Shown piece after piece: positions 9,402-64,000 of a DNA stretch of 64,000 bases. Position 1 is the stretch's first letter. Each line of letters starts with the position of its first letter. Position numbers and translations under genes: made by a program. Source of the stretch: Candidatus Didemnitutus mandela (GTDB lineage Bacteria > Verrucomicrobiota > Verrucomicrobiia > Opitutales > Opitutaceae); contig NJAL01000003.1 of assembly GCA_002591725.1 (NCBI GenBank), positions 1 to 64,000 of the forward strand. Direction: 5' to 3'. Under the pieces are notes generated by a model. It worked only from the letters and a program-made list of their open reading frames with translations. It ran no database searches and was not told where the DNA came from.

Positions 9402-9773
9402 ATGAAACGAGAAAAGGTCTCGACAAAAGGCGGACAACCGCTGTGTCAAAATCCATTCGCGGCACTCAGCGGAGACGGGTTGGTAGAAGCGGTTTTGAAA
9501 GCGTCTGAATCCAAGACACCGGCAAAGAATCGCGCGCGCGTGGACATTAAGCATACGGCGGCTGGGCGGAGTAACAAGACGGTGACCTTAGTGACAGGCT
9601 TTGTCGGAATTGGTTTTCCGGAAAAAAGATTACTGGCGAAAAAGATGCGAGCTGTGTGCGGCTGCGGCGGCACAGTCAAGAACGGGGATATCCAAATCCA
9701 GGGTGAGCAGCGAAAAAAGATCGCGCAAATCCTGGTCGAGGCCGGGTTCCGTCCGGTGTTTGCCGACGGCTAG
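9402..9773 (+). CDS. SUI1/YciH-family translation factor (eIF1-like)
   Basis: A bacterial relative of eukaryotic initiation factor eIF1, thought to take part in start-codon or initiation-complex quality control. The product is 123 residues: a basic, poorly ordered N-terminal half of about 55 residues, then the compact SUI1 fold. The fold is recognised by VTLVTGF, then LAKKMRAVCGCGGTVK, DIQIQG and the C-terminal helix KIAQILVEAGF. The ATG at 9402 begins MKREKVSTKGG. It follows the small hypothetical gene by 12 bases, so the two are probably co-transcribed. It converges on metF, leaving only about 10 bases between stop codons. Confidence 0.9.
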   Translation: MKREKVSTKGGQPLCQNPFAALSGDGLVEAVLKASESKTPAKNRARVDIKHTAAGRSNKTVTLVTGFVGIGFPEKRLLAKKMRAVCGCGGTVKNGDIQIQGEQRKKIAQILVEAGFRPVFADG

Positions 9774-9783
9774 AAGACTTCTT

Positions 9784-10650
9784 TCAGGCGGCGAGGGTCA
9801 GCGCGCTTTTTGCACGGTTCATAATATAAAGATGATAGCCGGGAGCACCGTTGGCGAGGAGCTCACGAATTTGCGAAAATGCCCAATCGATTCCGATCAT
9901 TTCCATTGCATCAGTGTTTTTAGCCGTGATTTCCAGTTGAGTTATGAGCTTTTTCGGGAGCGAGGCACCGCACATGGCGGTAAGGCGTTGAATCTGCTTC
10001 AGCGATAGCACCGGCATGATGCCCGGAAGGATCGGAACGGTGACACCAAGCGCTCGGCATTTGTCGACATAGCGATAGTAGACATCGTTATTGAAGAAGA
10101 GCTGAGTCGTTACGAAAGCGGCGCCAAGATCTACTTTGCGTTTCAAGTTTTCCAAATCGTTTTCCAGCGACGGTGCTTCCGGGTGACGTTCCGGATAACC
10201 AGCAACGCCCAGACAGAAGTCGGGATGACGGCCTTTGAGCAGTGACACCAATTCGCTGGCGTAGCACAGGCCGTCGGGGGCGGCTTGAAACGTGGATGCA
10301 CCTTTGGGTGGATCGCCGCGCAGGGTCATGATGTTTCGGAACCCGCTTGAGTGAATCCGGTCGGCAACCTCATTGAGTTCGGTTTTGGAATGCCCAACGC
10401 AGGTCAGGTGAGGCATGACTGTGAATCCAAAATCGTTTCTAAGAATCGTGCTCGCTTGTGCTGTGCGCTCACGGGTGGTGCCACCTGCGCCGTAAGTAAC
10501 GGAAACGAAATCCGGCTGAATCTTTTTCAGCGATGCTGCGGAGCTTTGTAGCGCGGCGAGCTGTATCTCATCCTTTGGAGGGAAAAACTCAAACGAACGC
10601 AATGAACGATGGGCCGCAAAAAAAAGGGAGATTTGGCGGTCGGGGATCAA
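9784..10650 (-). CDS. metF: 5,10-methylenetetrahydrofolate reductase
   Basis: An FAD enzyme that reduces methylenetetrahydrofolate to methyltetrahydrofolate for methionine synthesis. The product is about 288 residues, the usual bacterial length. It contains the N-terminal FEFFPPKDE segment with the catalytic glutamate, VSVTYGAGG, the HLTCVGH motif, a LRGDPPKG loop, and FVTTQLFFNNDVYYRYVD near the folate site. No ATG is available at the N-terminus: the frame is closed by a TAA directly before a TTG at 10650, so TTG is the only reasonable start. Convergent with the SUI1-like gene. Confidence 0.95.
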   Translation of the reverse strand: MIPDRQISLFFAAHRSLRSFEFFPPKDEIQLAALQSSAASLKKIQPDFVSVTYGAGGTTRERTAQASTILRNDFGFTVMPHLTCVGHSKTELNEVADRIHSSGFRNIMTLRGDPPKGASTFQAAPDGLCYASELVSLLKGRHPDFCLGVAGYPERHPEAPSLENDLENLKRKVDLGAAFVTTQLFFNNDVYYRYVDKCRALGVTVPILPGIMPVLSLKQIQRLTAMCGASLPKKLITQLEITAKNTDAMEMIGIDWAFSQIRELLANGAPGYHLYIMNRAKSALTLAA

Positions 10651-10879
10651 TTAATAATCAAAACATCAAGATTTGATGATATGTAAAGTTGATAAATTAA
10701 TCGACTCGTTAGTGAAATCTTTAAATTCAAAATCAATAAATCTTTAGCCAACCCAACGGTTTTTTAAGGCCCCCAAGGGCTGGCTCCCGCTGCTGAAGGC
10801 TTCGCTTGCTACGTGGGTTTTATCCAGCAGCTTTGATTTTCCAAAAAAATGAGTCCTTTCTGGAGGTTTGGAAAAAATC

Positions 10880-11560
10880 AGCTACTCGTTTCGAAACCTT
10901 GTTTTTTTATCCTGGTGCTCACTTTGGCGGCGGCCTGGAAACTGGTGGTTTTTGCGAAGACCCGCCCGAATGGAATCGCTTCGTAGCTGGGTCCCTTGAG
11001 ATTCTCTGCCAACACGTTTTTCCAGTATCTGCTTATCTGCTTTCTCCGGGGCTGGTTTCAGTCTCTTCCCCTCAGGTTTGCGACCGATTTTGAAGGTGTA
11101 AGTTTGGTGATCGAAGGCCGTGGGTGCAATTATTAAAATTATATGTTCGTGTTCGCGGATGGCTTCCACTTAGGAGTCGTTCAAGGCGTTCGCGGTTACA
11201 AAACGAAGCGATCCTAGACTATTTAGCAACATTTCGAGCTTTCTGGAATTGATTTTTTCCCAGCGGATATGTTGGGGGAGAGGGTGTGTTGGGTCTTTTT
11301 TTACGCGATCCGATGAACGCTCCGCCAGATGAAAAGTCTGATTTCGGTTTTGGCGATGTCTTTCGATTTCAAAGCCACAAGAGCAGAGTCAGCCCAATTC
11401 TTTTCTTCAACGTCGAGGTAGGTGGAGAGACCCGGCGATATAGCTTGGGGGGCCTTGTTATAACGCAAATAGCGACCGCCGAAATTCCGCGATTTTTTCA
11501 AGTAAAGTGTCTTTCCGCTTCTGTTAGTAAGTTATTAAGTTATAGTTTAGCGTCCTTGAA
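10880..11560 (-). pseudogene. Dead DUF4340-like protein of an ABC export operon
   Basis: Minus-strand fragments in several frames resemble the DUF4340 proteins that follow GldG in gliding-type ABC clusters. The segment at about 11300-11500 (containing WADSALVALKSKDIAK) resembles the early part of the domain, and a second segment near 11085-11130 (YTFKIGRKPEGK) a later part. They are separated by stops and frame changes, so the gene cannot make a full product. Position directly downstream of the GldG-like remnant, on the same strand, supports the assignment. Family recognition is from memory and moderate. Confidence 0.5.
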
Positions 11561-11819
11561 CTCCAATTGCTCTAGCCGTTTTGGGGCGTGTTATGGCTAG
11601 TCAGGTGGTTTTGTGTTGGTTAAATTGCGAAAGCAACTTGCTGAAATCAGTTCAATGGATTTTCCCCTGTGGTTTTCGCGGTAGCTGCTTGTGTGGTGAT
11701 GTCAGGGGCCAACGCAGGTTGGTGAACGCGAGGGGGGGCCTGAGCTGCCGATGTGGGCGGTTGCTGCACGAGCCATCCATAGATGGCTGATGATGACAAA
11801 AACACAGGCGACGGAGAGT

Positions 11820-13090
11820 ACGAGTGGGGGGAGCCTCATAGCAAGGATAAAATTATTCGCGCTGTGGTGACGGTGGAACCAAAGGACGAAAACACTGACA
11901 AGCAGCCGGGTGGCGAGCAGGTTGATGAGGAGTAGACAACGGTCCAGCGACTCAATGCCCTTGGGCAGCACGGCGCTGCCTCCCACAGATTTCCGCCTCT
12001 TGCTTTTTTTAATCTTCGATTACCTTCCGCATCTCGGACATTCAAACAATAAGATTGCTTCCGGCGCACTTTCCTTTGAATCCGGTTAAATTGAGCTTTT
12101 TGTTGATGAGCGCTGCGCGCCGTTGCAACGTCTGAGAGCACGATTTTTCGGACCAGCTCGTCCAGCTATCTTGAACTAAAACATTTGATCCGTGGCCACG
12201 CTGATTTTGCGGCGAGGGTTTTATAAACGGTGTGAAATAGAGGTGTGTGTCAGGTTTTAGCACAGCTACTGCTACTCTGCAGCTCGATTCGAGCTCAATC
12301 TGGTTTAAGAATTTTATTGAGCGAATTGTCTATCAGTCAAGCTAAAAAACCTCGCAACATGTGATTGGTAATGGTTTTTGTTTGCACCTGCAATGCATTG
12401 TCTGAGATCTGCGATGTACGTTTTGGATTGTAGGTAATGCCCCAGCCGTTGATCAAAGTTGGTAGGTTGCTGGGAGCCCTTCTCCTTCTCGCTGTGCGCC
12501 CATCATGGCTATTTAGCTGTTTTGGCGGCGGAAGCGATGGACCAACCGTTAGGAAGACGGAGTTGCTTCGAGAGAAGGAATTTATCGATTGCAAGCTGAA
12601 GCTGAGGCGAGACGTTTTTCTGATGCACGATCGCGAGTGCGTCGAGATTTGGAGACAAAGATTGTCGCACTGTTCTCCGTGTTGACGATGTCGAGGGAAT
12701 TGTTACCATTCGTTTAGAATTAGGCTGGTCCTACGGCGCGTTGCCGTCTTGGAGAGCTTACATGTCCAACTGGACAGCGGAGTAGCAGCGAGGTTATCAG
12801 GCTGAGTTTACGCTTGTAGAATAGTTACTAGTTACGTACTTGTAGGTTATCTGTGGTAGGTGTGTATTCTAGAAAGTTACTCCCGGTTGGGACTGAAAAA
12901 CGTGATATTCTTTTGTTGATTGGCCTCTACGGCCACGAGGCTGAAGTAGGATTCCAGCCGATTGCTAATCGGCTGGCCGATGAGTCGGCGGCGGTGGTTT
13001 GTTCCCGGCATGTCGGGCCCGGAATCGACGATCGTGAGATCGAGTTTTCCGTGCGCGGCGCGCACGTATTTCTTAACATTCTTTCACACA
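11820..13090 (-). pseudogene. Dead GldG-like ABC-transporter-associated protein
   Basis: Pieces in different minus-strand frames follow the order of a GldG-type membrane protein. Near 12880-12930 is an N-terminal-like patch (EANQQKNITFFSPNRE). Near 12560-12650 is the patch DALAIVHQKNVSPQLQLAID, which matches the conserved hydrolase-like GldG core. Near 12400-12450 is NGWGITYNPKRT. Near 11880-11960 is the C-terminal anchor (IESLDRCLLLINLLATRLL) ending in a basic tail. Each piece is in a different frame or is followed by a stop. The gene sits between the GldF-like and DUF4340-like remnants. Confidence 0.6.
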
Positions 13091-13099
13091 CTTGGCGTA

Positions 13100-13840
13100 G
13101 TTTTTTAGGAGATTGGAAGGCGACGACGATGCTGCAGGAAAAAGCTCCAGCTTGGTCGGCTCTTCGACCTTGTCGGGGATCGCTTTTGTGTTGAATGAAA
13201 GCGCGCAGATTTTTTGAGTAGTGGTGTCGAAACGGTCGTACAATTGAAGCTCGCGAGCAGATCGATCAACACACCAAAAGATGGAGGATGGCATTAAGCA
13301 GATTCGAAAAGACGTTCCGCCCAAGAAGAGCAGACGAGGTATGCGAACACGCTGATGACGAAGTTGATGACCTAATTTTTTGTTAAGGACAAGGTGGGTG
13401 GGTAGATACCGATAATACGCATCCGCTACCAGCGACCAGAATGTTGCCAAGATAGCTTGTAAGAGTGATGCTCCAGTTCGGTGCTCCGAAGTAAGCGACC
13501 GATGAGAGCCATCGGGAAGCTCAGTAAAATGGCCAGAGCGAGACAAGCCAAAGCCGCCAGACACTGCTTTCGGCAGCATATGTTGGCCCGTTTCCCCCTT
13601 TTCCCTCTGACCACAACTGGATGTTGGCGGCGGGAATCGGGAAGAGGAACAACCAGGGATGAAAGGCGAAGTAGCTTCCCAGGGTGGCGAAGTTCCTACG
13701 ATACAACTTGCCAACGAAAGATGCCAGACCGGCAGCAACCATCGGAAACACAATAAAGAGAATGCAAGCGATGGAAGAGCGAAAATAGCCGAGAGATTCG
13801 CGCTTAAAAAAGAGTGGAACAACTTGTTTCATGGCGCGAG
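13100..13840 (-). pseudogene. Dead ABC-2 type permease (GldF-like)
   Basis: The reading starts well at about 13832 with MKQVVPLFFKRESLGYFRSS, the typical start of GldF/NatB-like permeases. It continues through FAFHPWLFLFPIPAANIQLW, then shifts frame near 13530-13610, where LAALACLALAILLSFPMAL continues the next membrane segment. Further membrane-like pieces occur downstream in a third frame. Several frameshifts and stops make it non-functional. The start-to-end order and its place between the ATPase and GldG remnants support the identity. Confidence 0.65.
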
Positions 13841-13889
13841 CCAGCGGGCTTTAAAGATCTTCTTTTTGTGAGTTCATTAAAAACTCCGT

Positions 13890-14545
13890 CGAGCCGTGTG
13901 CCGCGTCTTGCGGGCGTGAAACATCTCCGGAATCTCGTCGACGGCCAACCATCCGTAAGAAATGAGAAAGAGACGGTTGCAAATGGTATCGGTCTATTCG
14001 AAGGTGTAGAGTGAAGGAATTATACCCTTTTTCTCCGATATCTGTTTAGTGATCGTGAGCATCGTGATCACCTCCCTTTTGGATTTAAGATAGAATCCGT
14101 TTGGACGCTCCCCCAAAAATAAAAACAGATGGGGATCCTGGAGTAGTACCTGAGTAAAACTAAAACTTCTGTGCTGTTTGTAGCCCTAGCTATCTCCAAG
14201 ATGACAGAGAAAAACGACCCGTTGTATGCAGGCGAGCTCCCCGACCCTCTCGTGATGCCGCGTACTTCGGCAGTAAAAAACAGGAATTTGCTTACCATCA
14301 TCTCCACATAAACTAAACTGGCGCACTCTCGTCGAAGTAACCAAACTGGCTCTTCAAGCGGATGTGATCGAACACGTACATCACCCCGTCTATCGACGGC
14401 AGGTCCTGCTTGTGTCTCGTTGCAGCGGGCTGGTAATCAGCTTCATCATCGTCGACTTTCCTGCGCCGTTGAGCCCATTTTAGACCGTAGCCCTTTACCA
14501 GGTTTTTTGGTCTTTTCAGCCTGCAAGCAGAGTTATACACGGGGT
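13890..14545 (-). pseudogene. Dead ABC transporter ATPase (GldA-like)
   Basis: Minus-strand fragments retain the order of an ABC ATPase. Near 14313-14440 the reading DGVMYVFDHIRLKSQFGYFD followed by ESAPV matches the region after Walker A, in which the regulatory segment GYLPESAPVY is typical of GldA/NatA. The next fragment (14068-14307) begins EMMVSKFLFFTAEVRGI, the expected continuation in another frame. Walker A and the ABC signature are damaged. It would have driven the GldF/GldG permease encoded next to it. Confidence 0.6.
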
Positions 14546-14549
14546 GTTG

Positions 14550-15660
14550 CGACGTCGTGTCCCTTTCCCCGGCGCAGCGCCACGGGCAGGCGGGAGGCGG
14601 CTCAGGGTATCGGCGGAGCGTTCTTGGCGAGTGTGCCTGGTCGGTTTCCAGGGAAGCCTTCCGTAGTGTTGTGAGGGATCAAGTTGACGTGGAAATGAAG
14701 GTCACGCTGGAATATCGTGTAGCCTTTTCCCTTCTCGCTGGCCCAAGGGAATCATTGACTTCTTCGAGTAGAATAAATTTCGGCGTGACCATCCGTCTGT
14801 ATTCTCAGGATAAGATTCTAACTGCCGGGAGCAGCTCTGAAAGCTGGTAGCGCTTGCAGATCGACAATGACCTGGTCTCACACTTCGCTGGCGTGTGTCG
14901 CGCAGAGAATGGCGAGCTAGAGGCCAAGATGCTCGTTGGCGAGCTCCAGAATTCTGGTACTAATCCGGAGGTGGAAATCGTGCTGCGACGAGTACCGAAG
15001 GCGAGGCCTAATTGGGTATTGGCGATGGTTGGCCCATGGGTGATCGCATTTTAGTTGTGGATCGATTCACCCATGCCTATAACGATGGCGTTGTCTAACG
15101 AAGTTAGCTCAGGACGGACGCGTGAACATCCTCGAGCCGGAGAATCTGGATTAGCTGGTGCAATATTTTATCTTGCCGACGCTTAGACTGTGCTTGGGGT
15201 AAGCGAAAGCCTAACTGCTGAAAAAACTTGCAGCCTATCATATTGGACGACTTTGGATAGAAAATCCAGATCATATTTTGCAACTTTTTGATGTCAATGA
15301 CGATTACAGGCGCGCGGATGGTGACAGTTTGGATCAAATGACCAATGAGTGGTTGCGCAATTCGAGAAGCAGCTTGTCTGTTTTTTCGTGCGACCTAGCG
15401 ACCACACGAGAAACGTGCTCGGTGCTAGGTCGGAGTTGACGTCGAGGCGTTGACGGAGCAATTCGAGAAAAAATGTTATTTAGTTCCAGGTCGCGACTCG
15501 TTTTTTGTAGGGCAGCTTGAGAACTTGGCGCTTACAAAACGCCGACTGACCTTCGGTTTGTAAGCGAGTGGTTAGCGAGTCGAGGGGGGACTGTAGTGGG
15601 GAGAGACAGGCACAAATCCCATGAAAATCCTTTGTGTAGAAATCCGATGAACGCCAGCTT
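14550..15660 (+). pseudogene. Unassigned coding remnant upstream of lptF/G remnant
   Basis: Two blocks of convincing but broken coding sequence lie on the plus strand. One is at about 14690-15055, interrupted by a stop near 14850. A second near 15220-15400 contains LWIENPDHILQLFDVNDD followed by an acidic helix, and a further piece lies near 15440-15560. All appear in the same direction as the LptF/G remnant. I could not name the family. Stops and frame changes exclude an intact product. Confidence 0.4.
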
Positions 15661-15671
15661 TACAAGAAAGC

Positions 15672-16811
15672 ATGAAGCTCCTCCAAAGGTATATTTTCAT
15701 AAACGTCGCTACGATGTCCCTGATTTTAATCGGGTTGTTTGCTTTCGTACTGATGTTGGCGAATGCTCTAAAAGATCTTTTGGGCTATGTGTTTGCGGGA
15801 CAAATCTCGGTTGGCACGTTGTTGCGGTTGATTGCCCTACTTGTTCCGTTTGTCGCATCTTATGCGCTGCCGGTGGGCATTTTGGCCGGCGTACTTTTGG
15901 TGCTTGGACGGATGTCGTCGTACCGTGAAATCATCGCGTTGCGGGCCGCTGGTATCAGTGTGGCAAGCATCTCTGCGCCGATCTTATTTTTTGCTGTGTT
16001 GGGCGTTGGACTGAATGCGACAGTTAATTTTTATCTTATGCCGTTGGCGCGTATAACGTATCGCCGCGAATTGGCGGAGGCATTGCAGTCGAATCCGCTG
16101 GGCTTTATCAAGTTGAAGACCTTTACACGAGAATTTCCAGCCTGCTCGTCTACGTCGGCGACAAAGAGGGGCCTACGTTGAAGGACATCTGGATGTGGAA
16201 ACTAGATAAACAAAATCGGGTCGTGCATTTTGCGCGCGCCATCTCGGGCGACATTTCCCTGGACGAAAGGGAAAACACGCTTATCCTTACACTGAACTAC
16301 ATACGGGCTGAGGTGCATGATCGCAGTGATCCCGAAGACACTTCCAAGGTGCACAGTGGCGGATCAGATAAGGCGACTTTCGATTTGCCACTCGATCGGA
16401 TTTCAGGAACGCAGGGTGTGTACATCAAGCGGAAATGGCGTATGCTCTCCCAACTGCTTGCTGAGTGGAGGGCACTAGGTTGCGCCGGCCCCAAGTCAAA
16501 AATGACGGCAAAGGCCCGCGCTTTGGAACAGATTTGCGTGCAGTCGGTTATTCAGGAAAAAGCGGCTATGGCCTTTTCGGTTTTTTCGTTCGCGGTACTG
16601 GCGATTCCGCTTGGGATCAAGGTCTCGTGCAAGGAAACCTCCGCCAATCTTGGTGTCGCGCTTGTGTTGGCGCTCGTCTACTATTTTTCACGGTCGCTGT
16701 TGGCTGGTTTGATGAAAAACCGACATTCCGACCAGATTTGTTGATGTGGGCCCCAACCCTCTGTTTCCAAGCGCTGGGGGGGTGTGGCTGTTTTATCGTG
16801 CGAATCGCTGA
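15672..16811 (+). pseudogene. LptF/LptG family permease, broken by three frameshifts
   Basis: An inner-membrane subunit of the lipopolysaccharide exporter LptB2FG (YjgP/YjgQ family). The first 155 residues are intact (MKLLQRYIFINVATMSL, with several membrane helices). Near 16142 a one-base loss changes the frame; reading on in the next frame gives SLLVYVGDKEGPTLKD and the periplasmic domain. A second shift lies at a T5 run near 16687, after which FTVAVGWFDEKPTFRPDLL continues. A third lies in a G7 run near 16780, after which the natural end VWLFYRANR and a stop at 16811 appear. Only three single-base indels separate this from a full gene, so it is one of the youngest pseudogenes here, or it contains consensus errors. 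Confidence 0.85.
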
Positions 16812-16859
16812 CCAAGCGGCAATGCGAAGGTGGATCTGACACGGCGAGCAGGTTGAAAC

Positions 16860-17830
16860 GGGCGCCGCCGAAACCCGTTTTTGAATACCATAGACAGTAC
16901 TATTACTTTCCCGAAATAAAGTATTAACCGGAGGGAACAGTAGACGTTTTAACTGCTTTTACATGATTGGCATAGTCGAGTGGTCTTAAATGTCCAGATG
17001 ATGAGCTCTGTAAGCGTGAGCCACACTGACTTCGCTCTTGTTGTTGCCGAGATTGAAGATCTAGGCAGGGCGCGCAGCAATCCTTGTTTTCAGTTCAGTA
17101 ATCCGCAGCAGCGCAATTGATCCGTTTATCAATTAAGGTGAAGGAATAGGCTTGCCTTCTCCCGCTGATGGGTTAAAAGTGACATTGAAAACGAATTGTG
17201 TAAAGCAGCTGTAAGCTGCCTTCCTTGGGTTCGAAAAAATCATCGATTTTTTGTATCGGTCCAGTTGAAATGGATGAAACAACGTGTAATCTGAACCGTC
17301 GTCCATGACGTTGTCGAGGAACTACTTCGAACAGGTGTAAGCCTAGCGCCGGTACTCGATGGGTTCGTAAACGAACAAACTTATGGCTTAGTCGAGCTGC
17401 TTTGTCCGACGGTATGCCGTAGACTTTCGAAGTCGAGTGGAAGATGATGCGTTTTTTGTGCTTTGCGCTGGTGCAACGACAGAGAGGTTGGCTTCAAAAT
17501 GAAATTCGAAGACGCTCAAGGCAGTATTCATGTATTGCATTGGCGATTGCGGCCAAAGGAAGAACTGCGTCACATTCCTTGTGTGTGGTTCGGTCGAGTA
17601 ACGCGAGATAATTATACGATATTTGAAATTTTATTGTATAAAATAAATAATAAAACATTTTATTTGACATGAGGTCAAGGCCGTAAATTTCCGAATCGAT
17701 TTGGCGGAAGATTGCTTCAGTAAGCGAGCTGCCAATGAAATCGATGACGCTGAAAATGAGGACTTTCTTTCTCATTGAAAGGTTAGAAACTTGGCCGATC
17801 CTTAGCGAGGACGTTTGAGACGTCACTCGG
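16860..17830 (-). pseudogene. Dead ArnA dehydrogenase-like (UDP-glucuronate decarboxylase) gene
   Basis: An SDR-family enzyme of lipid A aminoarabinose synthesis. The start is clear near 17770 (MRKKVLIFSVIDFIGSSLTE, then EIYGLDLMSNK). Frame-shifted continuations follow: CDAVLPLAAIANAI, then LSVFEFHFEANLSVV. On the minus strand near 17190-17250 there is a fragment reading IDDFFEPKEGS, corresponding to the FGPKLDD-FEPKEGS stretch typical of ArnA. Only the dehydrogenase half is represented, so it was probably a stand-alone gene. At least four disruptions are needed to trace it. Confidence 0.65.
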
Positions 17831-52770: not shown

Positions 52771-53370
52771 TTGAGTAGGTGGGGAGGAGGGTGTATGTGC
52801 TAAAAGGCGTTTTTCTCGAGACCAAACGCGGCGATGTTTGCGCGGTCGTCGGCACTTCTGGCTGTGGCAAGGTCACTTTGTTTTTATCTGCTCGTACTGT
52901 TCGACAAACCAGACGGCGGTTCGACCTGGGTCGTCGGTGGCCTCATATTCAATTCAACGCGAGTGATCTGAAGCGTACGGCCGCTTGCAGCGAGCATATT
53001 GGTTTTGTTTTTCAATTTCACTTTCCGATGCTTGAGTTCACCACGTTGGGAAACGTGATGATGCACATGCACAAGCTCGACTGGTGTACGGAGAAGCAGG
53101 TGGCTGAGCGTGTGCGCTCGCTTCTCAAGAACTTTGGCTTGGGAGAAAAACGCACCGTTTCGGTCCGTAGCTTTCTGGCGCTGAACAGCAATGGCAATGT
53201 ATGGCGGTCGTCCGGGTGCTCACCGAGCAATGGTAATTATTTTGGCCGACGAGCTGACGCTGACGGTCAATCTCGACCACAAAAAACTGCTCCTGTTTTC
53301 GGCCTTTTGACTCAACTCGCGATATTGCAAATCGCTGTTGTGAGACTCGCCTGATGTGCGACAGAAAATT
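52770..53370 (+). pseudogene. Dead LolD-type ABC ATPase
   Basis: An ABC ATPase of lipoprotein export or a related MacB-like system. Walker A is altered (GTSGCGKVTL, with the serine/threonine after the lysine replaced by valine). The LolD-like Q-loop region FVFQFHFPMLEFTTLGNVM is clear. The ABC signature region is shifted out of frame after about 53160, where an alternative frame would give a Walker B-like ILADE sequence near 53237. The open frame of 191 codons is thus a chimera of frames and not functional. Confidence 0.7.
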
Positions 53371-53803: not shown

Positions 53804-54457
53804 ATGTCGAAAATTTTTCCCAAGTCCGCAAACGCGCTTCCGTTGCAGATCGTTATCTTTGTTGCAGTACTTGGCGGCGTGGTGACCGCGGGAGTGACCT
53901 ATTATGCGACTCCGAAATATTTGCGCGTTGGCTTCCAGCCCGTACAGCCGGTCCCGTTCCCTCACGACCTGCACGCTGGCCAGCTCGGCATCGATTGCCG
54001 CTATTGTCACGCCAGCGTTGAAAAGTCTGCAACTTCGAGCATCCCGAGCTCGCAGACCTGTATGAATTGCCACAACACTATAAAAGCAACGAGTCCGCTG
54101 TTTGAGCCGATCGTTAAGAGCTATAAGACCGGCCAGCCTGTGCCGTGGGTAAAGATCCACCAGTTGCCAGATTATGTGTATTTCAACCACTCTGCACATG
54201 TGAATCGCGGCGTTGGCTGTGTTGAGTGCCACGGCAAAGTGAACGAGATGCCGGTCGTCTATCATGCGAAATCGCTTTCGATGGGCTTCTGTCTTGATTG
54301 CCATCGGGATCCGGTGTCTCACTTTCGTTATCCAAAGGACGTCTTTAATCTCAATCGCCAGACGCTTCTCGACCAAGGCAAGCTCGCCGAGGCCAGCAAA
54401 TTCATCGCGGACTGGAAAGTTAAGCCCCCGCAAAGCTGCTCTGGTTGTCATCGTTAA
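53804..54457 (+). CDS. actA: Alternative complex III pentahaem cytochrome c subunit
   Basis: A membrane-anchored multihaem subunit of the quinol:electron acceptor oxidoreductase ACIII, passing electrons to periplasmic acceptors. The 217-residue protein has one N-terminal membrane helix (about residues 14-34) and five CxxCH haem motifs at 65-69, 86-90, 139-143, 163-167 and 212-216, the normal pattern for ActA. Its stop overlaps the actB start by one base (TAATG), the first of many tight junctions in this operon. Confidence 0.96.
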   Translation: MSKIFPKSANALPLQIVIFVAVLGGVVTAGVTYYATPKYLRVGFQPVQPVPFPHDLHAGQLGIDCRYCHASVEKSATSSIPSSQTCMNCHNTIKATSPLFEPIVKSYKTGQPVPWVKIHQLPDYVYFNHSAHVNRGVGCVECHGKVNEMPVVYHAKSLSMGFCLDCHRDPVSHFRYPKDVFNLNRQTLLDQGKLAEASKFIADWKVKPPQSCSGCHR

Positions 54458-57400
54458 TGAAACGCAAATTCAAACATCCCGCCCCCTCCCAACGTGAGCT
54501 CACCGGCCCCCGTTATTGGCGCAGTCTTGACGAACTCGCGGAAACGCCTGCCTTCCGTGAACAGCTCGCCCGGGAATTCCCTGAAGGTTCATCTTTGACC
54601 GAAGGTGTTGATCGCCGGATTTTTCTCAAGATTATGGCCGCGTCTTTCGCACTCGGCGGCCTTGGCCTTGCTGGTTGCCGTCGTCCGGAGACGAAGATTC
54701 TGCCTTACGGTAAGTCCGTCGAATACATCATTCCCGGCCTTCCGCTCTATTACGCTACAGCGATGTCATTGCGCAAATCAGCCATCCCGCTGTTGGCGGA
54801 GACGCACCAAGGTCGCCCGACCAAGATTGAAGGTAACCCAACCTACACTCCGCTTGGTGGCGCCACGTCTGTTTTCGCCCAAGCCTCTGTTCTCGACCTC
54901 TATGATCCGGAGCGCGCTCGTGAGCACACAAAGGGTAGCCAGGTGCTGGACAGTACTGCCGTTAACGATCTGCTCCCAAAAATTCGCCAACAACACAGTG
55001 CCAATGGCGGACGAAGCCTTGCGTTTCTCGCCGATACTTCCGCTTCGCCAACCCGCTCTCGGTTGGTGGCGAGCATTCGCAAACAGTTTCCTCAGGCGAT
55101 CTGGGCTGAATACGAGCCCATCCAAGACGAAGTTCCTGCTGAGGCGATCTCCGCCTCCTTTGGCCGCCCGGTAAAACCTCTCTACCGTTTTTCGAAAGCG
55201 AAGTGCATAATCTCGCTCGATTCCGATTTCCTCCAAGCTGAGGCTGGCGCCCCCATCTACGCTCGCGATTTCTCGAAAGGTCGCCGCGCGGAAAAACCCG
55301 GCGATGAGATGAACCGCCTCTACGTTGCCGAGAGCGGTTTCACGATCACGGGCAGCATGGCGGATCATCGCCTGCGTGTTTCTAGCAGTCACGTTCAGGC
55401 TTTCGCTGCCGCACTTGCCGGAAAGATCCTTTGTTCAAGCGAATTTGCTTCGCTCGCGGCTGGTCTTGAGGATGACACTTTGGCTTGGATCGACGAATGT
55501 GCTAAGGATCTCGCGGCACATGCGGGCAAATCGCTTGTGCTCGCGGGTGCTCATCAGACGCCGGCGGTCCACGTGATCGTCAATGCGATCAACGCTAAGC
55601 TCGGCAACCTTGGCAAGACGGTCGATTATGTGGCGCTCCCCGAGGAAGCGACTCCGGCCTCGATTTCGGATCTTGCTGGTGTCATCAACGCCGGAGCAGT
55701 TGACACGCTAATCGTCATTAACGGCAACCCGGCCTACAATGCACCGGCCGATCTAAATTTCCCCGCTCTTCTGAAAAAGATACCGTCCGTGATCCGCTAT
55801 GGCTATCACATCGACGAAACCTCCGAGTTGGCTGGCGTGCAGCTCGCTGCGACGCACTATCTCGAATCGTGGGGCGATGCCCGCACGGTCGACGGTACGA
55901 TCGTTGCGATCCAGCCAATGATCCTTCCGCTCTTTGATGGTCTGATGGAAGTTGAGCTGTTGGCCCGTCTTGCAGGCGAAGCGAAGACTGGTGCCTACGA
56001 ACAGGTTTTTGCCACGATCGGCTCCATCACTGGCGGCGGCCAGAAATCTTTTAATAAGTTTCTCCACGACGGAGTGCTCGCCGGCTCGGAATACAAGCTG
56101 GTTTCGGTTTCGTTCAACCCCAATGCAGGCAGCAGCGTGATCGGATCGACGAAATCTTCCGTTACTGTGACGGAAGAACAGGTCGAGGTGCGTTTCGCGC
56201 CCGATTTGAAGATTGACGATGGTCGCTTTGCTTCTAACGGCTGGCTGCAGGAATTGCCAGAATCGATCACCAAACTGGCTTGGGACAACGCAATTCTTGT
56301 AAGTCCGCGTCTTGCCAAAAGACTAGGCGTCGTGCCCGATAGCGTCAAGCTCCAGGTTGCCAGAAAAGATCTTTCCGAGAATTTTAATTACAAAGAAATT
56401 GCCTATATCGCCGAAATTACTGTTGGCGATCGCAAAATTTCTGGTCCGATCCACATCCAGCCGGGTCTCGCCAATTATACCGTGATCGTTCCACTCGGCT
56501 ACGGCCGTAAGTGTGCCGGTCATGTAGGCACCGATATTGGTTTTAGCGCTTATCCGCTGCGCACGACAGGGGCGATGGGGTTCGTCACCGGTGCCAAAAT
56601 CACGGTGAGTGGTGAGCGCAAAAGCATCGCAACTACTCAGGAACACTGGTCGATGGAAGGCCGCGGTATCGTTCGCGAAGCTAACCTCGAGGAATTCGAC
56701 GAGAATCCGAACTTCGTAAAAGAAATCGGTATAGAGGCGGAAACGCCCCCGATCTTGGGCCCGGAAAGCGCTAAGCGGCCTGACGAAACTGAAGCGACCT
56801 ATCTGGCGCGCATCCATGGGGGAAATCCGAGTCTCACGCAAAAGTTCCCGCCGCGTGGCAACTCGCTTTACGAAACGCCGAACTTCGACGGCATCCATCA
56901 ATGGGGCATGTCGATTGATCTCAACACCTGCATCGGCTGCAACACCTGTGTGATTGCCTGCCAGGCGGAAAACAACATTCCGATCGTCGGTCGCGAGCAA
57001 GTGAAGCGTGGTCGCGAGATGCATTGGATTCGTCTCGATCGTTATTACTCGGATGGTCGGATCGATTCCGAGGCTTTTGGTGCCGAGGGCAATCGCGAGA
57101 TTCCGGAGGATCCTCAGGCGGTCGTCCAGCCGATGACATGCCAGCATTGCGAACTCGCACCCTGCGAAACTGTTTGTCCGGTCAACGCGACCGTCCACGA
57201 TGACGAAGGCCTGAATGTGATGGCTTACAACCGTTGCATCGGTACCCGTTACTGTGCCAATAACTGCCCCTATAAGGTTCGACGGTTTAACTATTTCGAT
57301 TGGAACAAACGTGCTACCGATGATCTTTACATGGGCCCGCTTGGTCACCAAAAGGAAATGCCCGAGCTAATCAAGATGGTGAAGAACCCGGACGTGACCG

Positions 57401-57836
57401 TGCGCATGCGCGGCGTTATGGAAAAGTGTACCTACTGCGTGCAGCGCATCCAGCAAGCGAAGATCGCCCAACTCCGCAAAGCCGGACCCTCGGGTAACGT
57501 CGAAGTTCCGGACGGCACCTTTACGACTGCCTGTGCCCAGTCTTGTCCGACTGAATCCATTGTTTTCGGTAACATCAAGGATCCGGACAGCCAAGTGGCG
57601 AAGCTCAAGGCTCAGCCGCGCGGTTACGCGGTGCTGGGTTACTTGAATGTTCGTCCCCGCACAACTTACCTCGGTAAACTCCGAAATCCCAACCCGAAGA
57701 TGCCTGACTACAAAAAGCTCCCGCTTAGCCGCGTCGAACAAAACAAGAAGAACCATCCGACGCACAGCGACGGAGCCGCTGAAGACTACGAAGCCAAAGC
57801 GGAAAAACATGAAACTGCTCGCGCAGAAAAACCCTA

Positions 57837-57837
<1 letters not shown>
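54457..57837 (+). CDS. actB: Alternative complex III iron-sulfur/molybdopterin-like subunit
   Basis: The large periplasmic subunit, a fusion of a molybdopterin-oxidoreductase-like part (B1, which in ACIII carries no molybdenum) and a ferredoxin-like part (B2). The product is 1126 residues. A twin-arginine sequence [13 protein letters not shown] (Arg53-Arg54) is followed by a hydrophobic core and LAGC (Cys74), so it is probably exported folded by Tat and lipidated. Fe-S cysteine motifs in the C-terminal third include CIGCNTC (from 825), [14 protein letters not shown] (from 895), [12 protein letters not shown] (from 927) and CTYC (991), plus CAQSCP (from about 1026). The ATG overlaps the actA stop and the end overlaps actC by one base. 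Confidence 0.96.
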
Positions 57838-59309
<1,472 letters not shown>

Positions 59310-59313
59310 AAAG

Positions 59314-59844
59314 ATGAAAACGACTTACGGACTTCTGGCCACCTTCGATACTACGCCCGCGCTCTACCATGCGTGCGAGCACGTGCGCGATGCTGGCTTC
59401 AAAAAATGGGATGCGATCACGCCATTCCCCGTCCATGGCCTCGATGTCGCGATGGGCATGCCGCGTTCGAAGCTTCCCCGGGCATCTTTGTGCGGAGGGA
59501 TCACCGGTTTTTGCACTGGTATCTCGCTGATTTGGTTTACCGGTGCGTTTGACTACAAGCTTATGGTCGGTGGTAAGCCGTTCTTTTCGCCGCTCTTTGC
59601 CTTCCCAGTGAGCTATGAGCTTACGATTCTCTTCACGGCCTTCGCGAGCATTATTGGAATGTTCGTGCTCAACCGTCTTCCCATGCACTACCACCCGGTG
59701 CAAAAAGCCCCGCAGTTTATGCGACTGTTGGATGATCGTTTTCATATCGTGATCGAAGCGACTGACCCAAAATTCAATGCCCACGAGGTCCGCGATTTCT
59801 TTGCGAAAATAAATGGCAAGGATATTGTCGAACTAGAGCAATAA
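59314..59844 (+). CDS. actD: Alternative complex III subunit ActD
   Basis: A small membrane subunit with two helices and an N-terminal domain, recognised by DUF3341-like features: MKTTYGLLATFDTTPALYHA, the FPVHGLDVAMGMPRSKLPR segment, and two helices around residues 60-80 and 100-125. The length, 176 residues, fits. The ATG at 59314 is four bases past the actC stop; an upstream open extension in this frame overlaps actC and is rejected. Its neighbours fix its role. Confidence 0.93.
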   Translation: MKTTYGLLATFDTTPALYHACEHVRDAGFKKWDAITPFPVHGLDVAMGMPRSKLPRASLCGGITGFCTGISLIWFTGAFDYKLMVGGKPFFSPLFAFPVSYELTILFTAFASIIGMFVLNRLPMHYHPVQKAPQFMRLLDDRFHIVIEATDPKFNAHEVRDFFAKINGKDIVELEQ

Positions 59845-59845
59845 A

Positions 59846-60484
59846 ATGCGCTATGCCTACTACACGCTTGCGTTCTTCTGTTTGCTCGTGATTTCGGTCA
59901 TGGGATTCCGTGGCCTCCTCAGCGATAAACCGCCAATCATTGTTTTCCCGGACATGGACTTCCAGTCCAAATACAAACCGCAGATGGAGTCGAAATTCTT
60001 TGCAGATGGCTGCGCCGACCGCATGCCCGTGCCTGGTACCATTCCATTCGGCCGTTCAACCGAAGTCAACGATCCAGATTTTCTCCGTACCGACGATCGT
60101 ATTTATCAGGGTAAGGAACCCGACGGCTCCTTTTCCCGTGGCTTTCCAGTCTCGGTGACAAAAGAGATGATTTTCCGAGGGCAGAATCGCTTCAACATCT
60201 ACTGCCGCCCGTGCCACGGTGCACTAGGTGACGGCATGGGCATCACCAAATCCTATGGCATGGTTGCAACGCCGAGCTACCACGACGATCGCCTGCGACG
60301 GATGGCAGAGGGCGAGATTTTCAACACTATTACCCATGGCAAGAATACAATGATGCCTTATGCCGATAAATTGTCGCCGGAAGACCGCTGGGCTGTTATC
60401 GCTTACGTGCGCGCTTTGCAGCGCGCTCAACACGCCAGTATCGACGATGTGCCGCGAGAGCACCGGGGAGGGAATTTGAAGTAA
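59846..60484 (+). CDS. actE: Alternative complex III monohaem cytochrome c subunit
   Basis: A periplasmic monohaem cytochrome c anchored by one N-terminal helix. The product is 212 residues with a single haem site CRPCH at 120-124 and a downstream methionine in MMPYADKLSPEDRW as likely axial ligand. It begins one base after the actD stop. The pattern 'iYCrpCHG..GdG' is typical of ActE. Confidence 0.95.
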   Translation: MRYAYYTLAFFCLLVISVMGFRGLLSDKPPIIVFPDMDFQSKYKPQMESKFFADGCADRMPVPGTIPFGRSTEVNDPDFLRTDDRIYQGKEPDGSFSRGFPVSVTKEMIFRGQNRFNIYCRPCHGALGDGMGITKSYGMVATPSYHDDRLRRMAEGEIFNTITHGKNTMMPYADKLSPEDRWAVIAYVRALQRAQHASIDDVPREHRGGNLK

Positions 60485-60485
60485 A

Positions 60486-61763
60486 ATGAGTACCACTTCT
60501 GGCACCTCGGCTCCAACCGCCAGCAATTCCGCAGGCAAAGCTCTTGCGATCGGCTTCTTCGGCCTCGTCTTGACGGCGTTTGGTTTCCTTTTTATGCCCG
60601 CGAAAAACGTCGCTTTGTCCTACCTTGTGGGTGTCATCTACTGGACGGCCACTGCGATCGGCATGCTGATGCTGGTGATGATTCATCATATTTTTGACGC
60701 CGGCTGGTCTGTGGTTCCGCGCCGCCAATTAGAACATGGACTTACTGCTTTTAAATGGCTTTTTGTCCTTTTTGTTCCATTGCTGGTTTCGGTTTTTGTG
60801 AAGCCGGGCTTGATCTGGCCGTGGATGAATCCAGCGCACAAGCTTCACGAAAGTCTGACCGTTGGCAACGACATACTCTACGTGAAAAAGTCTAGTTTCC
60901 TCAATGTCCGTATGTTCGTCGGCCTGACCGTGGTTTTCTACGGCATCTGGATTTTCCTTTCCTACTTGCTTCGCTCCGCCTCTTTCGCACAGGACAAGGA
61001 CGGCTCTTTCAAGTGGACCATCCGCTGCCGCAAGATCGCTGCTGCTGGCATCCCGCTTACTGCTCTTTCTCTCACGGGCGGGGCGATTTTCTGGATGAAG
61101 AGCCTCGAGTATCACTGGTTTTCCACGATGTATGGCGTTTGGTTCTTTGCCAATTGTATGCGTGGTGCGCTTTGCGTACTGATGTTCATTCTTATATGGT
61201 CTTGGCACCGTGGCGACCTGAGGGGTGCGCTCAACACCAACCATTGGCATTGTATCGGCACGCTTACTCATGCTTTCTCGATTTTCTGGGCCTACGTTAC
61301 TTTTTCACAATACTTCCTGATCTGGAACGCTAACGTTCCTGAAGAAACCTTCTGGTATAACCTGCGCGAAATTAACAACAGCAATGGAGAACCCAATCAA
61401 TGGAAGTGGGTGGGGTTCGTGATCCTCTTCGGACATTTTTTCTTTCCTTTTCTCTATCTCCTCAGTTACCGATTGAAGAGCACGTGGACCGGCTTGCTCC
61501 CCATCTGCATCAGCATTGGTCTCACCACCCTTATTGATCTTTGTTATAACGTGCTTCCCACCATCAAAGATGCTCATGGTGACCCACTGCCTTTCTTCTC
61601 GCTGAATCTCCTGTGGGTTACCTCGTCCTTGGTAGGTACCGGCGGCATTTTTTTCTGGGCATTTCTTTGCAGCTACGCTTCCGGTGCTGCGAAACTTATC
61701 CCGATTCGCGATCCACGTATTAAAGAGTCGCTCTCTTTCCACCCAGCTGCCACGAACTCATGA
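60486..61763 (+). CDS. actF: Alternative complex III membrane subunit ActF
   Basis: The second NrfD-like membrane subunit, about ten helices, 425 residues. Helices occur regularly from residue 20 onward, and the region YWTATAIGMLMLVMIHHIFD with conserved charged residues in the membrane is typical. It begins one base after the actE stop. Together with ActC it would form the membrane part of ACIII. Confidence 0.95.
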   Translation: MSTTSGTSAPTASNSAGKALAIGFFGLVLTAFGFLFMPAKNVALSYLVGVIYWTATAIGMLMLVMIHHIFDAGWSVVPRRQLEHGLTAFKWLFVLFVPLLVSVFVKPGLIWPWMNPAHKLHESLTVGNDILYVKKSSFLNVRMFVGLTVVFYGIWIFLSYLLRSASFAQDKDGSFKWTIRCRKIAAAGIPLTALSLTGGAIFWMKSLEYHWFSTMYGVWFFANCMRGALCVLMFILIWSWHRGDLRGALNTNHWHCIGTLTHAFSIFWAYVTFSQYFLIWNANVPEETFWYNLREINNSNGEPNQWKWVGFVILFGHFFFPFLYLLSYRLKSTWTGLLPICISIGLTTLIDLCYNVLPTIKDAHGDPLPFFSLNLLWVTSSLVGTGGIFFWAFLCSYASGAAKLIPIRDPRIKESLSFHPAATNS

Positions 61764-61766
61764 ATC

Positions 61767-62135
61767 ATGAATCCGCAACGTACGCCGGTCTTTACGACAG
61801 TGATCGTGATCCTTAGTGTACTATTCTTCGGCTGGCTGGTCAATAAGTCCTACCACCCGACTCCAAAGGGCTTTGCTACCGTGACTGCCGATCCGGCCGA
61901 TTTCTCTGAGGACCAACGCTGGAAACTAACGGCCGAAGGTCGAGCACAGCACCTCACTGAAATGCAACAGAAAGAAGAAGTCGAGGCTACCACTTACAGT
62001 TGGGTAGACCAGCCAGCCGGTGTTGTTCATATTCCCATTGACCGGGCTATCGAATTGACCGCGCATGATCTTTTGCTCAAAAAAAATAATGAACGCCACG
62101 GCAACAAACCTGCGTGCGGAACAGCAAAAGATTGA
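61767..62135 (+). CDS. Small single-helix membrane protein between actF and the CcoN-like gene
   Basis: A 122-residue protein with one N-terminal membrane helix (about residues 10-26, TVIVILSVLFFGWLVNK) and a soluble acidic domain. It is not one of the standard named act subunits that I recognise. It starts three bases after the actF stop and overlaps the CcoN-like gene by 47 bases, so it belongs to the operon and probably to the respiratory assembly. The C-terminal part is in the overlap and may be less constrained. Confidence 0.8.
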   Translation: MNPQRTPVFTTVIVILSVLFFGWLVNKSYHPTPKGFATVTADPADFSEDQRWKLTAEGRAQHLTEMQQKEEVEATTYSWVDQPAGVVHIPIDRAIELTAHDLLLKKNNERHGNKPACGTAKD

Positions 62136-63537
62136 CCGTTCGCTTTTCGGACCGACCTTGCTACTTCTTGGTTCAGCCCTCGCTTGGCTGATCCTTGGTG
62201 ACATCGCCCAGCTGTTTAGCTCGATCCAGCTGCACACCCCGTCTTTTCTGGCTGGTTGGGAGTGGACTACCCATGGTCGCCTCGCTCCGGTTGGACGCGA
62301 TGCTTTCGTTTACGGCTGGGGCATGAATGTCGCCTGTGCCTTCTCCTTCTGGTTGATGGCTCGTCTTTCCGCTACCACGTTGCGGCATGGCGGCTGGCCT
62401 TATGTGGCCACGTTTTTCTGGAATTTCGGACTTACTCTTGGATTGATCGGCATCCTGAATGGAGCTAGTACGTCCTTTGGCCTTTTCGAAATGCCACGAT
62501 TTGTGGTGTTATTGCTTTTCAGCTCCTACCTATTGCTCGCTGTGTGGTGCGTCACGACGTTTAGCGTGCGCAATACAGAAAACGTATTTGCCTCGCAATG
62601 GTATTTGCTTGGCGCGGCGTTTTGGTTTCCATGGCTCTTTCTCGCAGCAGCCCTCATGTTGGTCGAGCAGCCGGTTCAAGGCACTGTTCAAGCCGTGGTC
62701 AATTCCTGGTATTTGAATGGTATCTATAGCCTTTTTTTTGTCCAGCTTGCGCTTGCTGCGATCTATTACTTCTTGCCGAAGATCCTTGGTAAGGCGATCT
62801 ACTATTACCACATGGCTCCGATCGGTTTCTGGTGGTTCGCGATTTGTTCGGCTTTTTCCGGCGGCACCCGTCTGCTTGGTGGCCCTGTCCCAGTGTGGGT
62901 CTCTACGCTCGGTACGGCGGCAAACTTCACGATCATTCCCGCCATTATCATCATCAGCGTGAACATTTTTGGCACGCTTGCGGGCGATCGCAGTAAGGCC
63001 AAAGGAAGTACCACGATGAAGTTCATTTACCTTAGCGTCGCTGGCTTTTTGGGCGTCGCTATTCTTAACTTTCTTCTCTCGCTTCGCGATTTTGCTTCCA
63101 TCGTGCAGTTTACCATACTGCCCGAATTTCGCGACTGGCTAACGATGTATGGCTGCTTCTCCACAGCGATGTTTGCTGCAGCCTACTTCTTCCTCCCACG
63201 CCTTACAGGGCTTTCGTGGCGATCGGTGACGTTGATTAAGATCCATTATTATGCAGTTATTGCCGGCTTTATTTTGATGGCGTTTTCCGGCTTCTACGGT
63301 GGCTGGATCCAAGGTGGCCTGCTCAACGCGCCCAGCCAATCGTTTACGGAGATATCTCAACAGATGTCGCCTTGGTTCTTAATTCAGACGATTGCGCGCG
63401 TGGCTTTGATCGTCGGCCACATCGCTTTCTTCATTAATTTTTCCTGGCTAGTTTGTCCGGTTAACTCCCGCGGCACCACGGCTGCCGCTGTCGAGAATCC
63501 TTCTATTCTCGAAACTTCTGCAGGAGATCGCGCATGA
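62089..63537 (+). CDS. CcoN-like haem-copper oxidase homologue lacking the cofactor histidines
   Basis: A 482-residue membrane protein that aligns along its length with cbb3 oxidase subunit I. For example, SWYLNGIYSLFFVQLALAAI and AIYYYHMAPIGFWWFAIC fall on the helices that carry the CuB site, and RDWLTMYGCFSTAMFAAAY on the haem helix. At every expected ligand the histidine is missing: the low-spin haem His (P-L-H) is Gly69, the first CuB His is Asn210, the His-His pair is Thr260-Arg261, and the His-x-His pair of the haem helix falls at about Arg348/Trp350. The ATG at 62089 is chosen; it overlaps the preceding gene by 47 bases. The alignment was made by eye. Confidence 0.85.
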   Translation: MNATATNLRAEQQKIDRSLFGPTLLLLGSALAWLILGDIAQLFSSIQLHTPSFLAGWEWTTHGRLAPVGRDAFVYGWGMNVACAFSFWLMARLSATTLRHGGWPYVATFFWNFGLTLGLIGILNGASTSFGLFEMPRFVVLLLFSSYLLLAVWCVTTFSVRNTENVFASQWYLLGAAFWFPWLFLAAALMLVEQPVQGTVQAVVNSWYLNGIYSLFFVQLALAAIYYFLPKILGKAIYYYHMAPIGFWWFAICSAFSGGTRLLGGPVPVWVSTLGTAANFTIIPAIIIISVNIFGTLAGDRSKAKGSTTMKFIYLSVAGFLGVAILNFLLSLRDFASIVQFTILPEFRDWLTMYGCFSTAMFAAAYFFLPRLTGLSWRSVTLIKIHYYAVIAGFILMAFSGFYGGWIQGGLLNAPSQSFTEISQQMSPWFLIQTIARVALIVGHIAFFINFSWLVCPVNSRGTTAAAVENPSILETSAGDRA

Positions 63538-64000
63538 AAAGCGGTTTGCTCATTTTTCTAGGTGCTCTTGGCGTTGCGGTTATTTCTTGGAGTGGCGTGG
63601 TTCTCATGGCCCAGCGTCAATATGGGGCCCTGACTCAATTCAAGGATCCGGCGGAAGAAGCGCTCTATCCGCTTCCGCTCAGCGGTATCGCAGCCCAAGG
63701 TGCAATGGTTTACAAGGATCTTGGTTGCGCTTCCTGCCACACGCAGCAAGTTCGCCGAGCTGGCATCGGTGGCGACATCGAGCGGGGTTGGGGCACGCGG
63801 CAGAGCGTTGCTCGCGATTACATTCGTGAAACCACAGCCCAACTGGGATCCATTCGGGTCGGTCCTGACTTACGTAATCTTGCCGATCGGAGTTACGCGA
63901 CCGATGAATATCTCTTTAACTTGCTGTATGCTCCGGAAAGCGTTGCCTCTCATGCGGCTATGCCGGCCTATCGCTTCCTCTTCGAGGTGCGCCCAATCAC
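63534..64000 (+). CDS. CcoO-like monohaem cytochrome c (partial, runs off the window)
   Basis: Start of a CcoO/FixO-type membrane-anchored cytochrome c. The ATG overlaps the CcoN-like stop by four bases (ATGA). Visible are one N-terminal helix (residues 4-25), the haem site CASCH at 65-69 in YKDLGCASCHTQQVR, a VGPDLRNL segment and the likely axial methionine in AAMPAYRF. The last 155 residues in the window end without a stop. In true cbb3 oxidases CcoO passes electrons to CcoN; here its partner appears to lack cofactors, so it may act as an electron relay only. Confidence 0.9.
   Translation, partial: MKSGLLIFLGALGVAVISWSGVVLMAQRQYGALTQFKDPAEEALYPLPLSGIAAQGAMVYKDLGCASCHTQQVRRAGIGGDIERGWGTRQSVARDYIRETTAQLGSIRVGPDLRNLADRSYATDEYLFNLLYAPESVASHAAMPAYRFLFEVRPI

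Follow-up and report, generated by a model that had tools for sequence, protein, structure and literature searches.

In many Verrucomicrobiota a CcoN-like protein without haem and copper ligands, encoded with alternative complex III, probably serves as a mount for electron-carrying cytochromes

A cbb3-type oxidase has been assigned to verrucomicrobial methanotrophs (PMC8498564, PMC10205796), and several papers place a cbb3-type oxidase beside the genes for alternative complex III (ACIII; PMC6688271, PMC8498564, PMC11102522). A review, citing Refojo 2010, describes an ACIII-linked C-type oxidase for both Opitutaceae and verrucomicrobial methanotrophs (PMC8498564), and in Methylacidiphilum caldifontis IT6 the nos genes lie within the ACIII cluster (PMC11102522). 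In Flavobacterium johnsoniae, aa3 oxidase activity was abolished by deleting actA but not by deleting actE (PMC8552683); ACIII can therefore feed an A-type oxidase without the haem of ActE.

The locus described here comes from 'Candidatus Didemnitutus mandela', a tunicate symbiont that belongs to the Opitutaceae and has a 2.17 Mbp genome (PMC5698493). The window, i.e., the whole stretch of DNA that was analysed, is 64,000 nucleotides long and contains an operon with the order actABCDEF, a 122-aa open reading frame (ORF), a CcoN-like gene, a CcoO-like gene and a CcoP-like gene, the last two extending beyond the window (Table 1). The actABCDEF genes (53804-61763) adjoin the CcoN-like gene; their subunit names were given by order and type. 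The CcoP-like protein is a monohaem cytochrome with a single CxxCH, encoded 3' of CcoO outside the window, and both cytochromes are encoded alongside as in a cbb3 oxidase and score below their NCBIfam cut-offs. A first-pass annotation, made from the window sequence by eye, had described the CcoN-like gene as encoded with ACIII and a haem-motif cytochrome, which agrees with actABCDEF upstream and the CASCH of CcoO. It had also set the gene tightly between actF and the CcoO-like cytochrome; CcoO does adjoin and keeps its haem motif, but the 122-aa ORF separates the gene from actF. This ORF has no Pfam match at E 1 and no NCBIfam match at 0.01. In several class-level operons (L175, L177, L178, L217, L220 and others) an extra monohaem cytochrome stands in its place, and at locus L211 (genome G267, 10223-17143) actF and the 122-aa ORF are separated by other genes spanning about 7 kb; G267 may be the M. 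caldifontis IT6 genome. Upstream of actA in the window, an ORF at 52779-53354 resembles by eye a degraded ABC-transporter ATPase.

Table 1. Features of the ACIII-linked operon, with the codons of the CcoN-like protein that align with cofactor ligands and the cross-linked tyrosine of P. stutzeri CcoN
Feature	Position in window	Strand	Basis or alignment
ActA-like cytochrome, five CxxCH motifs	53804..54457	+	sequence; five-motif relatives at other loci
ActB-like subunit	54445..57837	+	likeness between loci; name from place and length
ActC, NrfD-like	57837..59309	+	PF03916, 3.2e-24
ActD-like	59314..59844	+	within ORF 59149-59844; name from place
ActE-like monohaem cytochrome c	59846..60484	+	Pfam search, likeness between loci
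ActF-like	60486..61763	+	operon place and likeness between loci; without Pfam match
Conserved 122-aa ORF, no known family	61767..62135	+	relative in 141/156 loci
CcoN-like protein, 482 aa	62089..63537	+	COX1 Pfam, PDB matches, alignments
G69 codon	62293..62295	+	at haem b ligand H60
N210 codon	62716..62718	+	at CuB ligand H207
S254 codon	62848..62850	+	at cross-linked tyrosine Y251
T260-R261 codons	62866..62871	+	at CuB ligands H257-H258
R348 codon	63130..63132	+	at haem b3 ligand H345
W350 codon	63136..63138	+	at haem b ligand H347
CcoO-like monohaem cytochrome (CASCH)	63534..64000, on to ~64196 outside the window	+	Pfam, NCBIfam searches

The CcoN-like protein passes the cut-off of the Pfam COX1 family (3.7e-32; 112.2 bits, cut-off 34.8), and each of the five PDB chains that it matches is either a cbb3 subunit I or a 'cytochrome-c oxidase' chain, with 9g6b_A (4.8e-14) and 3mk7_A (1.8e-13) at the top. 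A profile-profile comparison of 13 ligand-lost with 8 ligand-bearing rows was collinear over 437 columns (E 1.8e-57), in keeping with the earlier claim of colinearity with cbb3 subunit I. An AlphaFold model from a two-row alignment had a mean pLDDT of 40.5. The likeness to CcoN of the cbb3 (C-type haem-copper) oxidases lies in collinear sequence, the top PDB match and the CcoO and CcoP-like proteins encoded alongside, whereas the window protein differs in having no haem or copper ligands and in scoring 81.8 bits against the NCBIfam ccoN equivalog TIGR00780, for which the cut-off is 583.15. An ACIII-linked relative that does have the ligands (L213; 253.7 bits) likewise stays below this cut-off.

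For P. stutzeri CcoN we take H60 and H347 to be the ligands of haem b, H345 that of haem b3 and H207, H257 and H258 those of CuB, and Y251 to be the cross-linked tyrosine. When the window protein is aligned with this CcoN, all six histidines are replaced and Y251 falls on S254. The first-pass annotation had read the same replacements at the same positions (Gly69, Asn210, Thr260-Arg261, about Arg348 and Trp350) and had noticed the altered active-site tyrosine region. By sequence alignment none of the protein's own six histidines (49, 62, 100, 241, 386 and 444) sits on a haem or copper column; H386 corresponds to H384 in CcoN, a non-ligand histidine that is present in 96% of 105 ligand-lost rows. 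The letters at the ligand columns were identical for all 156 rows between two alignments of differing settings. Judged by these alignments, the protein is predicted to keep the CcoN fold but to be unable to bind any of the three cofactors (haem b, haem b3, CuB) in the manner known for CcoN.

A gene in this state could be a pseudogene decaying in a reduced genome, since the genome is small (2.17 Mb; assembly of 2,171,216 bases) and the published assembly counts 226 pseudogenes (PMC5698493). We rejected this reading, which is scarcely credible given that the window protein retains 43/43 of the columns whose conservation among the other 104 ligand-lost rows reaches 95% or more, that dN/dS is near 0.13 in relatives and that many genomes with sizes of 3 to 8 Mb share the ligand loss. 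The retained columns indicate that the protein is not decaying, and with the open frame of 482 residues they uphold the earlier description of the gene as intact. It also keeps 96 of the 110 columns that do not vary among the remaining 21 rows of its subclade. For the ligand-lost pairs (all from relatives of the window gene; the first 16 of 27 selected were analysed) median dN/dS was 0.129 for the CcoN-like gene, 0.124 for ActF, 0.176 for CcoO and 0.146 for the CcoP-like gene, with ORFs taken from stop to stop so that untrimmed ends are possible. The ligand-bearing pairs (13 usable of 16 analysed, 18 in all) gave 0.107, 0.159, 0.083 and 0.206, respectively. Constraint on the CcoN-like gene is therefore about equal with or without ligands and that on CcoO is looser without them, and these medians indicate that the ligand-lost relatives are under purifying selection.

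Matches were found in 189/200 genomes of the family at 1e-8 and in 122/387 genomes of the phylum at 1e-30, although other COX1 proteins may be counted in both figures. Ligand columns were read at 200 loci from 199 genomes, of which 156 were aligned jointly, one (L202, from G504) with outgroups and 43 added at fixed alignment length; eleven further listed matches (G031, G036, G062, G076, G082, G146, G168, G174, G180, G195, G471) were left out of this set. Loci from the genome search carry only ~1.5 kb of flank each, and a search for related loci in named genomes yielded one locus. Among the matches listed, six histidines were present at 49 loci, four or five at 3 and three or fewer at 148, while 37 of the 200, including the window, had no histidine at any ligand column. 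ActF was upstream at 197/200 loci. We therefore hold with high confidence that ligand loss is a family-level pattern. The first-pass annotation had asked whether homologues are ligand-free too, as these counts bear out, but its picture of one eroded genome, in which the window gene is indeed intact, was too narrow.

An oxidase or nitric oxide reductase that still works with unusual ligands might be sought in those rows that keep some histidines, namely H60 where the ligand columns read HSAQKFI, and H60 with H347 where they read HNSQRYH. We consider this very unlikely and rejected it, because the 37 loci without a histidine at any ligand column include the window, Y251 occurs in none of the 105 ligand-lost rows and the replacements are diverse (Q, R, W, A, L and others).

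Every ligand is present in each of the 19 outgroup proteins (L183-L201), and ligand loss is therefore derived. A quick tree of 177 rows, built with the ligand columns removed, gave ligand-lost clades of 92 rows (with the window; SH-aLRT 95), 11 rows (89) and 3 rows (98), and in addition three partial losses, each of one row, that lie among the ligand-bearing ones. A more careful tree, with 36 lost and 40 full rows (76 in all), is less clear-cut: the lost/full split takes three changes, two of them forced by starred branches. Three changes are likewise required for the rows of the 92-row clade and two for those of the 11-row clade, and the members of the 3-row clade come apart. Forcing all lost rows into one clade was rejected on this tree (p-AU 0.00033), in which long branches are present (G239, G291, G385, L202 and others). 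Given these long branches, the safe statement from the trees is that ligand loss arose at least twice.

The partial losses read HHYSHHH, HHQRHHH and HHSARHH, with CuB-site residues gone and haem ligands kept; two of the genomes, G100 and G103, are drafts with completeness of 68% and 65%. In G211 and G349 (the HNSQRYH rows) only the haem b pair remains. Together, these few rows suggest that ligands were lost in the order CuB, then b3, then b. As full, partly lost and wholly lost orthologues occur in the same operon, the steps of loss can be studied.

The losses have not fallen evenly on the protein. The residues W24, G54, R83, W162, W204, Y223, Y224, P227, K228, W267 and H384 are each kept in at least 95% of the 105 ligand-lost rows, as opposed to Y251 in 0%, H257 in 0%, H337 in 6%, R57 in 9% and S240 in 11%. 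The former being framework residues and the latter belonging to the ligands and pocket, loss falls mainly on the pocket while the frame stays. The emptied core could have taken up a new role, for instance in binding quinone or lipid or in moving ions, and lineage-specific polar residues at former ligand sites, among them R261, R348, D349 and W350, are invariant in the window subclade of 22 rows. We regard this as improbable: S240, Y251 and T215, which belong to the cbb3 proton path, are kept in just 11%, 0% and 10% of the 105 ligand-lost rows, respectively.

At the ligand-lost loci (among the matches listed) ActF was upstream in 147/148, a CcoP-like gene downstream in 146/148 and CcoO in 140/148, where the distance rule overlooks some CcoO inside long open frames and ActD was left out of the counts. 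For the 105 ligand-lost loci of the first 156, CxxCH was present in 103 of the 104 CcoO proteins found and in all 103 CcoP-like proteins found, and the methionine of the CcoP-like protein was kept in 99%. The methionine of CcoO (M143 in window numbering) was kept in 77% of ligand-lost versus 100% of ligand-bearing rows; CcoO thus seems to be under weaker constraint at ligand-lost loci, and the M143 result speaks against a uniform relay.

We favour, with some reserve, the reading that the CcoN-like protein is a redox-inert scaffold which holds two c-type haems on ACIII and feeds a separate oxidase; the first-pass annotation had likewise put forward a scaffold or docking subunit as a possibility. 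The protein would descend from the catalytic subunit of a cbb3-type oxidase linked to ACIII, would itself be redox-inert and would serve in the membrane as the scaffold on which the haems of CcoO and CcoP are held on ACIII, and electrons would pass from quinol to ActA/ActE, then to CcoO/CcoP and on to the separate oxidase. The physical complex, the absence of haem from the CcoN-like protein and the electron path are all things that we infer from sequence. Such a chain would be like that of F. johnsoniae and Rhodothermus marinus, in which ACIII is wired to an A-type oxidase via c-type haems, but different in its CcoN-like, CcoO and CcoP subunits, which are not mentioned in the available part of that work (PMC8552683).

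A factor that helps ACIII or the CcoO/CcoP cytochromes to assemble or to remain stable, and that stands outside electron transfer, would account for framework residues and purifying selection that persist without cofactor ligands, and for ActF upstream at all but one of the ligand-lost loci. A pure assembly role would however have no need of the haem motifs kept in CcoO and the CcoP-like protein, nor of their place ahead of CoxA in 26 loci, and we think it rather unlikely. An A-type CoxA lies within 4 kb downstream on the same strand at no fewer than these 26, i.e., at least 26/148 ligand-lost versus at least 1/49 ligand-bearing loci, both lower bounds because loci with short flanks (~1.5 kb) were scored as having no CoxA. 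In the 20 of the 26 loci where CoxB is in the stretch it has no CxxCH, and CcoO/CcoP are therefore the obvious c-haems to feed CoxA. Against the scaffold reading stand the 122/148 ligand-lost loci without CoxA within 4 kb downstream, some of them with flanks of ~1.5 kb, too short to tell.

The window genome has one other COX1-family protein, an A-type CoxA on the same contig (G000:C4:212462-213823), and the CoxB beside it carries a haem motif. The separate terminal oxidase of which the first-pass annotation had spoken is thus at hand, and in this genome it would be this A-type enzyme with its cytochrome c domain on CoxB. We scanned 140 genomes for COX1 proteins, taking more than 400 bits with PF00115 as A-type; ligand state was known for 134 (44 full, 87 lost, 3 partial). 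The ACIII-linked protein was the sole COX1 match in 3/44 ligand-bearing (G200, G331, G083) versus 0/87 ligand-lost genomes (Fisher 0.036, kinship ignored), and an A-type oxidase was present in 35/44 versus 84/87 (Fisher 0.0027, kinship ignored). This association between ligand loss and A-type oxidase is not independent of phylogeny: the tree offers two independent pairs on supported branches and three on all, which leaves no power. The three ligand-lost genomes without an A-type match are G009 and G091, which have a fused cbb3, and G149, too fragmented to tell; the partial-loss genome G103, with its assembly 65% complete, shows no other COX1 match. Within the family, G002 and G051 (99-100% complete), which belong to a single genus, have no COX1-family match.

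The published ACIII-linked C-type oxidase shares its operon place with the ligand-free form and very probably consists of the same genes, but it is called an oxidase in print, whereas the ligand columns of G337 (presumed Kam1) and G239 (presumed SolV) read SESSHFV, and in both the operon continues with CoxA. The 'cbb3 oxidase next to ACIII' of Methylacidiphilum (PMC6688271, PMC8498564) is thus, in the presumed Kam1 and SolV genomes, very probably the ligand-free form. G239 has six COX1-family matches, namely two A-type, two ba3-like (L203 called from sequence, L204 from the NCBIfam pattern alone), one NorB and one ligand-free CcoN-like protein; no working cbb3 was therefore found in it. Within our incomplete coverage of the literature we found no published mention of the missing ligands of the ACIII-linked CcoN-like protein.

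Taken across the phylum, the ligand-free CcoN-like form stands intact beside ACIII in many Verrucomicrobiota and probably serves to carry cytochromes that pass electrons on, without being an enzyme itself. The chances seem to us evenly balanced for the broader claim that redox-inert catalytic subunits of haem-copper oxidases, derived more than once from active ACIII-linked cbb3 enzymes, are a standing structural part of an ACIII-CcoN'OP-aa3 chain throughout the phylum, and that the methanotroph 'cbb3 oxidase' is no oxidase. If true, this would be a rare catalytic respiratory subunit kept under selection after the loss of its cofactor ligands, and pipelines that count COX1 or 'ccoN' matches would overstate oxygen-reducing capacity in the phylum. 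One of the loci without ActF upstream, L047 (G013, 9695-12691), codes in a 999-aa open frame for the second CcoN-like copy of its genome; this copy has the ligands, and its neighbours are CoxA and CoxB in place of ACIII genes.
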